A stretch of DNA of 45,091 nucleotides from an uncultured Acidobacteriota bacterium. GTDB taxonomy: Bacteria > Acidobacteriota > CAIWXX01. The translations under genes were made by a program, and so were the position numbers. The stretch's first letter is position 1, and every line of letters begins with the position of its first letter. Of the stretch, positions 28,085-36,993 are shown piece after piece. The stretch is from the NCBI GenBank assembly GCA_903916735.1, contig CAIWXX010000179.1, positions 1 to 45,091 of the forward strand. The letters are read 5' to 3'. The notes beneath the pieces are model-generated. The model was not told where the DNA came from and searched no databases. It saw nothing but the letters and a program-made list of their open reading frames with translations.

Positions 28085-28122
28085 GTTTTTGCCATGAGGG
28101 GATTCCCCTTTTTCAGTCCCTG

Positions 28123-28131
28123 TGGTACAAT
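28123..28131 (+). promoter_or_regulatory. Extended -10 promoter of the RRM gene
   Basis: TGG followed by TACAAT (28126-28131) forms an extended -10 box; the -35 region (TTCCCC at 28103-28108) is weak. The predicted start near 28138 gives a leader of about 68 bases. The box lies about 40 bases from the end of MITE copy 1. Confidence 0.4.
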
Positions 28132-28153
28132 ATTATGTCGCGGTAGAGTCTGC

Positions 28154-28205
28154 GGGCAATGGTGCCCATACCTCTTTAGCGGCTGCCAGCCTTAAGGAGG
28201 CTAGT
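28154..28205 (+). promoter_or_regulatory. RNA leader able to sequester the ribosome binding site of the RRM gene
   Basis: CCTCTTTA (28171-28178) pairs over its full eight bases (one G-U) with TAAGGAGG (28193-28200), the Shine-Dalgarno sequence. Inside that loop GGCT (28181-28184) pairs with AGCC (28188-28191), giving a stacked hairpin. Just upstream GGGCA/TGCCC (28154-28167) forms a separate stem-loop. A competing stem AGCCT/AGGCT around the SD is also possible. This suggests control of translation by temperature or by the RRM protein itself. Confidence 0.5.
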
Positions 28206-28517
28206 ATGGGCAAGAAGTTATTTGTCGGAAACCTTCCATTCTCCGCAACCGACCAGTTCCTTAGCGAAACGTTTTCTCAATGCGGCACCGTTGAATCCGC
28301 CAAAATCATCACCGACCGTGACACGGGCCGCAGCAAGGGCTTTGGCTTTGTTGAAATGTCGAATGATGAAGAAGCAGCCAATGCCATCAAGAAATTCAGC
28401 GGCTTCAGCTACGACGGACGCCCGCTGACGGTCAACGAAGCGCGACCAATGACTCCTCGCGACGGCGGCGGCAGCCGGGATCATGGAGGCCGTGGCGGCT
28501 ACGGCCGACGCTATTAA
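28206..28517 (+). CDS. Single-RRM glycine-rich RNA-binding protein
   Basis: The 103-residue protein is one RNA recognition motif with RNP2 LFVGNL (residues 5-10) and RNP1 KGFGFVEM (44-51), followed by a short Gly/Arg-rich tail ending GGYGRRY. Bacterial members are often cold-induced and bind single-stranded RNA. ATG 28206 is preceded by a very strong TAAGGAGG six bases away, and the frame upstream (open to 28122) lies in the untranslated leader. The structured leader suggests post-transcriptional control. It is transcribed alone. Confidence 0.9.
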   Translation: MGKKLFVGNLPFSATDQFLSETFSQCGTVESAKIITDRDTGRSKGFGFVEMSNDEEAANAIKKFSGFSYDGRPLTVNEARPMTPRDGGGSRDHGGRGGYGRRY

Positions 28518-31605: not shown

Positions 31606-34600
31606 TCAGGCTGAAACGGAGGCGATGAGGTTCAGCACCGCCTGTCCATGCTTCTTGATGAAAGCCGGGCCGACGCCGTGAATGGCGAGAAGTTGGTCTT
31701 CGGTTTGCGGGCGGCCGGCGGCGATGCCGAGCATCGTGCGGTCGCTCATGATTCGAAACGCGGGGATTCGCCGTCGGCGAGCCTCCTTGAGCCTCCATGC
31801 GCGGAGTGCGTCGACGAGCGCTGACGTGGCGCCGGCGGCGGCGATTTTCGGGGCCGGAACCACGACGATGGCCTTTCTCCGGGAAGGCGCGCGCTTGGGT
31901 TTCTCCGTCTGCCGAACCACTGAAATTGTTTTCGGCAGTGGCACCGCTGCGAGTGCTGTGGCGTGGATGTTCCTCCCCGCCGGCGCCAGCTTAATCCGCT
32001 GATATGTGATTCGCTTTCCGTCCTTCTCAAATTCTTCCAAGGAAATGGAGACGATGTCGGCTCGCGCGAGCCCCGAGAGGAGCACCTCGTACTCATGGCG
32101 ACCGACACTTCCATCGCCGAAGAGATCGCGATGGAGTCTGCCCGTGGTTGTGCCGCCGACATTTGCGAGGGCTTCGACAACGGCCGCCATCACGCGCTGT
32201 TCCGAGGCCGTCGGTGTCCGGAAGCTCTGTACAGCACAGGTCGTATATGCGCAGTTATCACAAAGCCCGCATACATGCCCTGGATCGTCTTCGTCGCCGA
32301 AATGACGAACTAGATGGAGCATCCGGCAGCCATGAACCCGTGTGAAGCCGGCCATCTCCTCTTCCTGCGTCTCACGATGTGTGCGCTGTGCAAGATAGGA
32401 TGTCATCCAGTGATCGTGGCCTCGCCGGACCGTATCTTCCGAATCCACCACTGCACCGCCGTGAATCCAGAGCTTCTCGAGAGCATTATCGAATGCGTTC
32501 TCGTCAAGATGTGCGTCGACTTTCAGATCATCTCTCGGTCGGCCCCTGTCAGACAGCAGCGAATAGACCTCCTCTAGAACAGCGGCCTCCGGATAGTCGC
32601 GCACACGAAAGAACTCGTTCATCTTCCGGTCCGCATACGAGTGCATCAGAACGGCACGTGACGGGTTTCCATCGCGGCCGGCACGTCCGATTTCCTGGTA
32701 GTAGCTTTCGAGGGTCTGGGGAAGCGCCAGATGAACAACCGTGCGAATATCCGCCTTGTCAACGCCCATCCCGAAGGCGATCGTTGCGACGATGACATCG
32801 AGTCCTCCATTGATGAAGCGGGATTGAACCGAGTCACGGCTCGCCGACGCCATTCCCGCATGATAAGCGGCTGCGGAGAAGCTGCGAGCAAGCATCCGCG
32901 CGATGTTTTCAGATTCCTTGCGTGTCGGGGCGTAGAGGATGGCCGGACGCCGAGAGGCATCCAGGAGCATTTCGAGCGCGAGCGCCGGCCGATCAGGCTT
33001 GGAGACTTCGACGACCTCGATCGCGATGTTGTCACGGCGAAACCCGTGGATGAATCTACGGGGAGATTGAAGTCCGAGCTGTTCGGCGATGTCGCTTTGT
33101 ACGAGCGGGGTGGCGGTGGCCGTGAGAGCCACGATCGGCGCCGGCCGGAGTTGCGGAAGGCGTTGCCCGAGCATCCGGTATTCCGGCCTGAAGTCATGCC
33201 CCCAATGGGAGATGCAGTGAGCTTCGTCGACTGCGATCAGCGAAGGCCGGCGGCGCTGGAGCGTCTCCAGGAAGCCGGGAACCGCCAGGCGCTCAGGCGC
33301 GATGAACAGCAAATCCAGCCGCCCCGCCAGATACTCATCGCACACTTCACGAAACGCGGCGCGAGGCCTCCCCGAGTGGATCCGTTCGGCTCTGACTCCG
33401 ATCTGTTTCATCTTGGACGTCTGGTCTTCCATGAGTGCGATCAACGGGCTGACGACAAGTGTCGTCCCTCCACGAACCAGCCCTGGAAGCTGGTAGCAGA
33501 GGGATTTGCCCGCGCCGGTCGGCATCACGAGCAGAATGTCGTCGCCGGCGACCGCCGCGGCGCAAACCGCTTCCTGATACGGGCGAAACCGCTCAAAGCC
33601 GAAAACCCTCGTCAGCACATCGCTCAATCCGCGCGCGCCGGCCACCGGATCCATCGATGCCTCCCGCATCTGCTGCACAACTGGAGATGGTTTCGTCGTC
33701 GAGTCCTGGATCTCTTCCAGTGGCAACGGTTGTGAAACCCCGGGCCGGTGAAAAGCCTGCCCCACAACATCACGCACATAATCCTCGATTCCTTGCATGA
33801 AGACCGGCAGCTCCCCTTGGCCCCTCTCGATTGACCGCAGCTTCGCTTCCCATTCGCCGGTCATCGACGGGTTCTTGACATCGGCGTGAACCACATCGAT
33901 CAGGTGAATTCCTTTTGGCGTCGGCTTCAATAGCTTCGCCTCGCGCACCAGATAGCCTCGTGCCAGCAGCGTCTCGATAATGCCGGCTCGCGTGGCGGGC
34001 GTTCCGAGGCCGCGATCCATCATTGCACGAGACAGCTCTTTGTCATCGAGCTTACGGCCGGCCATTTCCATCGCCGTGAGAAGTGCTGCTTCAGTAAGCC
34101 GGGGTGGAGGCCGTGTCTGCTTCTTCAGCGCAGCGACATCCCGCACATCCTGTGCCTGCCCTCGCACAAGACCAGCCGGAAGGCTGACTTCGTCGCCCAG
34201 AGTGCCACCACGGGCTCCAGTGCGCCTCGCCCCGTGCGTGCTTTCGGCAAGTGCAGGATCAAGCACCTTCCAGCCCTGTTGCACGATGGCCGTGCCGGTA
34301 GTGTAGAAACGATCCGAGATTCTGTCCTCGGCCTCGGCTGATTCAACCGCCGTCACGATGGTCGTGACCGCCCAGACATAGTCTTCGTGCCATGCCGACA
34401 AGAGCCGGCGGCAGACGAGGTCGTAGATTTTCTTCTCATCGTCCGCGAGTTGAGCGGCAGGGGCGGTCACCGTCGGAATGATGGCATGATGATCGGTGAC
34501 CTTCGAATCGTCGATGAAGCGCCGCGGGAGCGGTTTGGCGCCAATGTCTTTGGGTAAATGAGCGGCATATGGTTCTGCAATGGTGGCAACAACACGAGAC

Positions 34601-35649
34601 AGAGTGCCGGCAACGTCGGTGGAAAGATATCGGCTATCGGTTCGTGGATAACTTAGGAGCTTGTGCGTTTCGTAGAGCCGCTGAGCGGTATCGAGTGTCC
34701 TCTGCGCGGTGAATCCGTAGAGCCGGTTTGCATGCCGCTGTAATTCTGTCAAATCATAGAGAAGCGGCGGCGGCGATCTCTTGGTCTCCTCATGGATTGA
34801 TTCAATTGAACAACGACCGCTTTTGCGCACACGATCGATGATGCTTCGTGCCTCAACCCCATCCTTCTGCAGGCGGCGCCCATCACGGAATGCGTTCTGC
34901 TGTGACCCGCCTTTCTTCTGCCTGAACCATGTCCCCTGATATGTGCCCGGCTCATCAGGAAGTCCGGATTCAGCCGGTCGCACGGGAGCAAACGTCGCGA
35001 GAACCTCAAGGTAGTCCTCGACCACGAACGCCTGTATCTCCTTTTCGCGGGCAACAACCATGGCGAGCGTGGGCGTTTGAACACGACCCACAGAGAGAGT
35101 CTCTCCATGAACCAGCGTGTAGGCACGCGAAAGGTTCATGCCGACCAGCCAATCGGCCTGAGCGCGCCCGCGAGCGGCGTCGGCGAGGCGGTCGTACTCG
35201 CGTGACTCCTTCAACGCGACAAAGCCCGCTCTGATTGCATCCGAAGTCAGAGAGGAGATCCACAGCCGGCGCACAGTTTTCTTGCATCCGGCAACTTCGT
35301 AGATGTAGCGGAAGATGAGCTCTCCCTCCCGCCCCGCGTCCGTTGCGCAGACAATGGAGTCCACCTGGCGGTCATTCATCAGTTTCCGAATGATGTCGAA
35401 TTGAGCGTGTGTTTCATCGATGACAACCAGCGGCCACTTCTCCGGCAGGATGGGAAGTGTCTCGCGTCGCCACGTTTTCAACGCGGGATTGATCTGGTGA
35501 GGCTCGGCCAGAGTCACGAGATGCCCGACGGCCCATGTAACAATGTAACCACCGCCGTGCATGTAGCCTTCCGCGCGGCTTCGCGCGCCGAGCACGGCGG
35601 CGATGTCACGAGCCACCGAAGGCTTCTCAGCCACAACGACGATACTCAT
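31606..35649 (-). CDS. Fused DNA topoisomerase III - RecQ helicase - HRDC protein
   Basis: One open frame of 1347 codons joins two enzymes. Residues 1 to about 640 are type IA topoisomerase III: TOPRIM with E8 and DAGREGE (104-110), QADWLVGMNLSRAYT, and the active-site tyrosine Y334 in SYPRTDSRYL. Residues about 675-1130 are RecQ helicase: Walker A PTGAGKS (K715), DEAH (808-811), the arginine-rich QEIGRAGRDG motif VI, and a zinc-binding CRML...CGLCDNC group. A winged-helix region and an HRDC domain (about 1275-1347) complete it. RecQ and Top3 jointly dissolve double Holliday junctions and untangle late replication forks; here both are in one chain. No SD site is evident before ATG 35649. No stop or frame break lies at the junction, so the fusion is genuine in this sequence. 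Confidence 0.92.
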   Translation of the reverse strand: MSIVVVAEKPSVARDIAAVLGARSRAEGYMHGGGYIVTWAVGHLVTLAEPHQINPALKTWRRETLPILPEKWPLVVIDETHAQFDIIRKLMNDRQVDSIVCATDAGREGELIFRYIYEVAGCKKTVRRLWISSLTSDAIRAGFVALKESREYDRLADAARGRAQADWLVGMNLSRAYTLVHGETLSVGRVQTPTLAMVVAREKEIQAFVVEDYLEVLATFAPVRPAESGLPDEPGTYQGTWFRQKKGGSQQNAFRDGRRLQKDGVEARSIIDRVRKSGRCSIESIHEETKRSPPPLLYDLTELQRHANRLYGFTAQRTLDTAQRLYETHKLLSYPRTDSRYLSTDVAGTLSRVVATIAEPYAAHLPKDIGAKPLPRRFIDDSKVTDHHAIIPTVTAPAAQLADDEKKIYDLVCRRLLSAWHEDYVWAVTTIVTAVESAEAEDRISDRFYTTGTAIVQQGWKVLDPALAESTHGARRTGARGGTLGDEVSLPAGLVRGQAQDVRDVAALKKQTRPPPRLTEAALLTAMEMAGRKLDDKELSRAMMDRGLGTPATRAGIIETLLARGYLVREAKLLKPTPKGIHLIDVVHADVKNPSMTGEWEAKLRSIERGQGELPVFMQGIEDYVRDVVGQAFHRPGVSQPLPLEEIQDSTTKPSPVVQQMREASMDPVAGARGLSDVLTRVFGFERFRPYQEAVCAAAVAGDDILLVMPTGAGKSLCYQLPGLVRGGTTLVVSPLIALMEDQTSKMKQIGVRAERIHSGRPRAAFREVCDEYLAGRLDLLFIAPERLAVPGFLETLQRRRPSLIAVDEAHCISHWGHDFRPEYRMLGQRLPQLRPAPIVALTATATPLVQSDIAEQLGLQSPRRFIHGFRRDNIAIEVVEVSKPDRPALALEMLLDASRRPAILYAPTRKESENIARMLARSFSAAAYHAGMASASRDSVQSRFINGGLDVIVATIAFGMGVDKADIRTVVHLALPQTLESYYQEIGRAGRDGNPSRAVLMHSYADRKMNEFFRVRDYPEAAVLEEVYSLLSDRGRPRDDLKVDAHLDENAFDNALEKLWIHGGAVVDSEDTVRRGHDHWMTSYLAQRTHRETQEEEMAGFTRVHGCRMLHLVRHFGDEDDPGHVCGLCDNCAYTTCAVQSFRTPTASEQRVMAAVVEALANVGGTTTGRLHRDLFGDGSVGRHEYEVLLSGLARADIVSISLEEFEKDGKRITYQRIKLAPAGRNIHATALAAVPLPKTISVVRQTEKPKRAPSRRKAIVVVPAPKIAAAGATSALVDALRAWRLKEARRRRIPAFRIMSDRTMLGIAAGRPQTEDQLLAIHGVGPAFIKKHGQAVLNLIASVSA

Positions 35650-35722: not shown

Positions 35723-36421
35723 TCAACTGGCCTTAGCGTTGCCTTCCCGGTACGGTTTATCGCGAAGTCGTTTCTGGGCGCCATATTTCCTGGCCGACAT
35801 TTTCATCCCGAGATCTCCCATGAAGGTGTATAGCCAACTCGGGAACATGCCCTTCGCCATCAGATCGACGGCTTTCTGAGGGGCCGGCTGCCCGTCGGCA
35901 AGGGCTGTCGCCGTCATATCGAGCGCCGTCATGACCCGCTTCACCATGCGGCCACGTGACTTCAACGGCTGCCCTCCGATGGCGCCGCCCCCGCCCAGAG
36001 CCAGGCCGCCGGCCCAGTCGAGCCCGGTTTCCCGAGCGAATTGGCGGCAAATGGCAAGGGCGGTTTCATTCTGGGAGGACTCGGGAAACCCCGAGTTGCA
36101 GATGGCGAGAAACATCTTCTTCTTTCGTTCGCCGGCAGCCTTCCAATGCCGGGCGACACATTCAAACGCCTTGATGACCGGCGCCGGTAGACAATCCACA
36201 TAAAGTGGGAATGTCAGAATCAGAATGTCGGCCGAATCGCACGCTGCAAAAAGCTTCTCCAGGCCCTCTTCCGATCTGACCGACGGATGAATACGGATTT
36301 TTTCAGTTTCAAGGCCCTTTGAGGCCATTTGCTCCATGAGATACGTCCCGAGAGAATCTGAGGAACTCTGGGAGGCTTTCGGGCTGCCGACCAGGAGGAG
36401 CACTTTCTGTTGCGACGTCAT
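35723..36421 (-). CDS. Flavodoxin-like NAD(P)H-dependent FMN reductase-type protein, second of a pair
   Basis: The 232-residue protein begins MTSQQKVLLLVGSPKASQSSS, a phosphate-binding loop of the flavodoxin-like family. It has FPLYVDCLPAPVIKAFE at residues 75-91, another typical flavin-contact segment. The C-terminus is longer and basic. It overlaps the upstream flavodoxin-like gene by ATGA (36421-36418), so the two are co-translated and may form a heterodimer. The electron donor and acceptor are unknown; such proteins reduce FMN, quinones or Fe-S partners. Confidence 0.72.
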   Translation of the reverse strand: MTSQQKVLLLVGSPKASQSSSDSLGTYLMEQMASKGLETEKIRIHPSVRSEEGLEKLFAACDSADILILTFPLYVDCLPAPVIKAFECVARHWKAAGERKKKMFLAICNSGFPESSQNETALAICRQFARETGLDWAGGLALGGGGAIGGQPLKSRGRMVKRVMTALDMTATALADGQPAPQKAVDLMAKGMFPSWLYTFMGDLGMKMSARKYGAQKRLRDKPYREGNAKAS

Positions 36422-36993
36422 TGACGCACTCCCACTTCTCCGAGGTAGCCCCGGATGCGCTGTCGCATTTCATCCGGCGACTGATGCTCATAAAGCACAC
36501 CCGCTTTGTATGCCGGGGTATACATGTTGATCGAGTTGCGATGGACGAGTGTTTGGAAAATTCGTTCACTTTCCTTATCCGACTGTGGGAGCACGCCGAC
36601 GGCCAGGTAGCGAGGATAGCGATCGTATCGAGGCTCGTGATGAACCTCGCCCTGAAATTTCCGGAAGAAAGGATTGATATTCTGAACCAGATGATCCAGA
36701 GCCTTCTTCAGGGTCGAAGAGTAGCATCCAAAGGTGATGTGCGTGAGGACCACATGAAGATCGGAGTTCACCATCGTTCTGGCAATTTTCCGGTTGTCAT
36801 CGTCGACGACACATGTTCCCGGCGTCTTCATCCAACACAGGAAATCACCGGCACAATCGGCGATTGTGAGGTCGCGGAGCCTAAACGATTCGATCTCACA
36901 CCCGCAGCTTTTCAACTCGTCCTCAACCGCTTTATAAACGGCCTGAGCCGTTCCGCCACCACTCTCAAATCCATCCATAACCATGGCTTTCAT
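36418..36993 (-). CDS. Flavodoxin-like NADPH-dependent FMN reductase-type protein, first of a pair
   Basis: The 191-residue protein shows the flavodoxin-fold order: N-terminal strand and loop (MVMDGFESGGGTAQAV), a CXXXW (CAGDFLCWMKTPG) segment at about 47-60, and ITFGCYSSTLKKALDHL at about 86-102. Those last two resemble iron-sulfur flavoproteins or NADPH:FMN reductases. It has GGAGGG before ATG 36993 and overlaps its partner at 36418. The three cysteines in the first half could bind a cluster in an Isf-type variant, but the spacing is not the canonical one. Confidence 0.72.
   Translation of the reverse strand: MKAMVMDGFESGGGTAQAVYKAVEDELKSCGCEIESFRLRDLTIADCAGDFLCWMKTPGTCVVDDDNRKIARTMVNSDLHVVLTHITFGCYSSTLKKALDHLVQNINPFFRKFQGEVHHEPRYDRYPRYLAVGVLPQSDKESERIFQTLVHRNSINMYTPAYKAGVLYEHQSPDEMRQRIRGYLGEVGVRQ

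Follow-up and report, generated by a model that had tools for sequence, protein, structure and literature searches.

Topoisomerase III and a RecQ-family helicase in one polypeptide: a gene fusion of the Acidobacteriota and its proposed role as a dissolvase

In an uncultured member of the Acidobacteriota, topoisomerase III (TopB) and a RecQ-family helicase are encoded by one gene and joined in a single chain, and the same arrangement recurs in other genomes of the phylum. We consider it likely that the gene specifies a bifunctional TopB-RecQ enzyme acting as a single-chain dissolvase of recombination or replication intermediates, judging by the two families to which its halves belong. Whether bacterial RecQ and topoisomerase III work as a unit, in the manner of BLM/Sgs1 and Top3, is disputed. 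A review of 2021 treats the E. coli pair as a dissolvasome and documents the cooperation of topoisomerase III with RecQ-family helicases (PMC8191776), while an E. coli study of 2026 states that a physical interaction between RecQ and topoisomerase III has not been observed, found no functional link and named RecG instead (PMC13244152). A description of a TopB-RecQ fusion was not found in the full-text literature searched, which covers few subscription papers, and an entry for this domain order may exist in domain databases.

Organization of the fusion gene

The gene is located on the minus strand of the window (the whole stretch of DNA that was analysed, 45,091 nucleotides), with an ATG start at 35649, a stop at 31608-31606 and no internal stops in its frame. 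The features discussed below are the following, all on the minus strand.

31606..35649, minus strand: TopB-RecQ fusion gene, 1347 aa (single open frame; Pfam and NCBIfam; single-frame homologues in 19 other genomes)
33742..35649, minus strand: topoisomerase III half, residues 1-636 (TIGR01056 over cutoff; AlphaFold model; PDB fold match)
35251..35640, minus strand: Toprim domain with E8 and DxGREGE, residues 4-133 (Pfam PF01751)
34852..34932, minus strand: basic loop, residues 240-266 (phmmer alignment to the decatenation-loop region of E. coli topoisomerase III)
34648..34650, minus strand: catalytic tyrosine Y334, in YPRTDSR (alignment of nine fusions)
33628..33741, minus strand: linker, residues 637-674 (length and sequence differ among relatives)
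32626..33627, minus strand: RecQ helicase core, residues 675-1008, with K715 and DEAH 808-811 (Pfam, NCBIfam, phmmer, alignment)
32413..32592, minus strand: extra insert of about 60 residues, predicted to be winged-helix-like, residues 1020-1079, between helicase core and zinc module (spacing comparison and model)
32251..32388, minus strand: RecQ zinc-binding module, residues 1088-1133, with C1108, C1127, C1130 and C1133 (Pfam and alignment)
31987..32208, minus strand: probable RQC winged helix, residues 1148-1221 (H-H-H-E-E topology in the model)
31624..31821, minus strand: HRDC domain, residues 1277-1342 (Pfam PF00570, E 6.5e-20)

A sequence-only reading had placed both enzymes in one polypeptide at 31606-35649 without giving a strand, and had regarded all catalytic motifs as intact. 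Both statements hold: the topoisomerase occupies residues 1-636 and is followed by a short linker and the helicase at 675-1342, E8, Y334, K715 and DEAH (808-811) lie where they had been assigned, and the zinc cysteines and HRDC are present. Pfam located Toprim (4-133), Topoisom_bac (151-614), DEAD (689-847), Helicase_C (892-994), RecQ_Zn_bind (1088-1133) and HRDC (1277-1342) along the chain. The catalytic residues of both halves are invariant in nine aligned fusions. As regards the surroundings, two FMN-reductase-like genes precede the fusion gene on the same strand (35723-36993), and on its 3' side it faces a convergent gene for an M24 peptidase. Further along the window, at 28122-28517, a small RNA-binding (RRM-like) protein was recognized by eye from its RNP motifs.

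The two halves were modelled separately, not as the whole 1347-aa chain. The TopB half scored 563 bits with TIGR01056 topB (cutoff 515.75), its AlphaFold model reached a mean pLDDT of 84.9, and the best PDB matches of this model were structures of E. coli topoisomerase III (E 7.5e-54, 31% identity). Toprim residues E8, D104 and R107-E110, as well as Y334, are invariant across the nine fusions. Residues 240-266, where model confidence is moderate, contain seven K/R against three D/E; the alignment of this basic stretch with the E. coli decatenation-loop region, whose role has been described (PMC8191776), fits a decatenase.

The helicase half scored 390 bits with TIGR00614 recQ_fam (cutoff 219.8) and remained under the cutoff of the strict equivalog TIGR01389 recQ (475 bits vs 640.2), and we therefore call it a RecQ-family helicase and not a canonical RecQ equivalog. 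A fold search with its model returned BLM and bacterial RecQ cores. The four zinc cysteines are invariant in the nine fusions. Nearly all members of the RecQ clade to which the fusion belongs, fused or standalone, have 131-136 residues separating GRAGRDG from the zinc motif, compared to 64-72 residues in other acidobacterial RecQs; the insert of about 60 residues, which the sequence-only reading had not mentioned, marks this acidobacterial RecQ clade as a whole. In the RecQ model, which is of low confidence (mean pLDDT 65.7, four sequences), the insert is helix-helix-helix-strand-strand and is predicted to be winged-helix-like. Residues 1148-1221 show the same H-H-H-E-E order in this model, with no RQC match in Pfam.

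The presence of two such enzymes in one chain recalls reverse gyrase, which likewise combines a superfamily 2 helicase domain with a type IA topoisomerase, and the T. maritima enzyme was among the fold matches. However, reverse gyrase begins with its helicase and introduces positive supercoils, whereas the fusion begins with the topoisomerase and continues with a complete RecQ, including zinc and HRDC modules. In the fold search, reverse gyrase was a weaker match (E 9.7e-27, 17% identity) than E. coli topoisomerase III, and the score with TIGR01054 rgy (104 bits) is far under the cutoff of 471.7. It is thus highly improbable that the helicase is used here for positive supercoiling.

Distribution of the fusion

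The source genome is a draft assembly of 5.37 Mb (98.7% complete) in 183 contigs, a circumstance in which an assembly or sequencing artefact could have merged two adjacent genes, and the loss of a stop between them had been named as the observation that would overturn the sequence-only reading. We give this explanation practically no credence, because relatives carry both halves in one frame. The only relative of the same family among the genomes searched, deposited as a groundwater Acidobacteria bacterium, carries the same fusion with 65% identity across the full protein. In 396 genomes of the phylum, nine single-frame fusions of 1265-1523 aa were found, our own included, and two more are split at contig ends; a class-level search added eleven further fusions, one of which ends at a contig edge. 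Both halves therefore share one frame in at least 20 acidobacterial genomes of six families, i.e. in 19 genomes besides our own, and a contig-broken case adds a seventh family. Furthermore, eight fusions aligned to our protein are 48-64% identical to it, and the nine sequences are too diverged for a common error. The arrangement, which the sequence-only reading had called unusual, is therefore no isolated case.

The linker differs in length across fusions, from about 40 to more than 150 residues. An exact 8-residue pattern scan of the named genomes returned no fusion beyond the genome of the same family. Among the matches listed from plasmids, phages and viral contigs, TopB or RecQ occurred and a single TopB+RecQ chain was not found. 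The one plasmid locus covering 80% of the query was rejected as a fusion, as it consists of two adjacent Listeria genes. Similarly, the long N-terminal extensions of three RecQ frames (L089, L090 and L092) were discarded as TopB candidates; they gave no TopB match and seem to be frame without coding character.

The genome was also searched with the family models for separate topB and recQ genes, a check that the sequence-only reading had proposed. No second TopB or RecQ exceeded the cutoff, the next matches being TopA and other helicases, and the fusion is thus the sole copy of each. In each of ten further fusion-bearing genomes, TopB over the cutoff was confined to the fused copy, and nine of them had no RecQ over the cutoff besides the fused one. 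The exception, G367, has two more; one of these, a RecQ-family helicase at 239222-240340 of contig C53, lies within an open frame of 1827 aa. TopB over the cutoff was found in none of the eight genomes checked that carry close standalone RecQs. An unfused TopB of another genome (L091:4253-7384, G045) has a C-terminal extension of about 400 aa with several Cys4 zinc-ribbon-like repeats, as judged by eye.

Evolutionary history

In the TopB tree, all fused proteins group with two decayed ones in a single clade (SH-aLRT 99) that excludes free-standing TopBs. In the RecQ tree, standalone RecQs are nested among the fused ones, and a clade of fused RecQs was rejected (AU p = 0.0004). In the RpoB tree, fusion carriers occur to either side of a deep split, and several groups are the same as in the RecQ tree; distances of RecQ and RpoB are correlated (r 0.68), while the agreement of TopB with RpoB is weak (r 0.29, p 0.075). 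Distances of the TopB and RecQ halves show a correlation of 0.77, which indicates that the two halves have a common history. Since the TopB halves make up one clade and the fused RecQs are interspersed with standalone ones, the simplest reading is that the fusion probably arose once, before the deep split, and was inherited vertically, its TopB half being lost repeatedly, although the trees contain many open forks.

The two decayed cases are found in family f7. In G280 (L080:5615-8224) and G240 (L081:5940-8555), TopB proteins of 869 and 871 aa, respectively, terminate with a degraded remnant of the first RecQ motor domain, where DEAH has become EEAE, and the second motor is gone; both genomes have an intact separate RecQ elsewhere. 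These proteins are apparently decayed fusions. The missing RecQ part was not found 3' of either gene, nor were TopB remnants found 5' of the standalone RecQ genes.

The rejection of a fused-RecQ clade could also mean that one TopB lineage was joined to RecQ several times independently, instead of once with subsequent losses. We regard this as improbable, given that the fused and decayed TopBs are monophyletic with no free-standing TopB among them, that no TopB over the cutoff occurs in those genomes checked whose standalone RecQs are the closest, and that RecQ distances track those of RpoB.

Proposed function and comparison with known systems

The dissolvase reading is based on several observations taken together, i.e. 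intact catalytic residues, TopB and RecQ scores over the family cutoffs, the best fold match of the TopB half to E. coli topoisomerase III and its basic stretch aligned with the decatenation loop, the zinc module and HRDC, the absence of a second topB or recQ from the genome, single frames in 20 genomes, and halves of common history. It also draws on the adjacency of recQ and topB in Listeria and on the documented cooperation of topoisomerase III with RecQ-family helicases (PMC8191776). According to this proposal, the RecQ motor would unwind joint molecules such as converging forks, D-loops and double Holliday junctions, and would thereby supply the single strands needed by the tethered topoisomerase III gate. 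The latter would pass strands through the break made by Y334, and the partners would be separated without crossover. The flexible linker would substitute for the protein contacts, and for the RMI scaffold, that join BLM/Sgs1 to Top3 in eukaryotes. The chain must also perform any tasks that belong to RecQ only, since it is the sole RecQ of the genome.

E. coli RecQ and topoisomerase III belong to the same families as the two halves and share with them the catalytic residues, the zinc module, HRDC and, by alignment, a putative decatenation-loop region. However, they are separate proteins, while the halves of the fusion are covalently joined and its RecQ half has the extra insert. The eukaryotic BLM/Sgs1-Top3-Rmi dissolvasome also pairs a RecQ helicase with topoisomerase III, and the likeness in action on joint molecules would follow by analogy; it is assembled non-covalently and has an OB-fold RMI scaffold, in contrast to the single chain described here, in which Pfam reported no OB-fold domain. 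In Listeria, recQ and topB lie next to each other in the same orientation with 23 bases between them, but they encode two proteins and recQ comes first.

Alternatively, the fusion may be functionally incidental, fixing a one-to-one expression of two enzymes that would each act on substrates of their own, like unlinked TopB and RecQ. The fact that sister lineages have lost the TopB half, the high variability of the linkers in length and sequence, and the E. coli genetics that separates RecQ from topoisomerase III (PMC13244152) are in line with this possibility, to which we assign a modest share of the probability. Against it stand the common history of the two halves (distance correlation 0.77) and the fact that 20 genomes of six families preserve both of them intact in a single frame. 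We thus prefer the single-chain dissolvase, with the reservation that neither covalent link nor joint action is indispensable, as several sister lineages have lost TopB and kept RecQ.

Relation to RecG

Following the E. coli study that names RecG as the partner of topoisomerase III (PMC13244152), RecG was searched for in 41 genomes, comprising 18 with an intact fusion (our own included) and 23 others. In nine of the 18 (our own genome G000 and G001, G061, G245, G333, G367, G452, G469 and G489) full-length RecG was not found and only a Mfd-like match was obtained; the nine other carriers have RecG. It is present in all 23 genomes without an intact fusion, in two of them as contig-end fragments. 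The association of RecG absence with the intact fusion gave a Fisher p of 1.4e-4 across the 41 genomes. On a species tree of 27 genomes, three RecG changes suffice, amounting to about three independent losses, and an independent-pairs test of the association was not significant, there being too few independent losses. Because the comparison was made post hoc and genes may be missing from draft assemblies, we consider the association a lead and not a finding. It is conceivable, albeit rather unlikely, that in Acidobacteriota the TopB-RecQ chain replaced the partnership described for topoisomerase III and RecG in E. coli and made RecG dispensable, leading to several losses restricted to fusion lineages.

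Significance

For studies of dissolution by single-molecule or structural methods, the fusion offers an enzyme in which the one-to-one ratio of the two halves is fixed. With regard to the disputed partnership of RecQ and topoisomerase III in bacteria, an old, natural and repeatedly kept fusion constitutes evolutionary evidence which suggests that the two enzymes act jointly in at least one phylum.
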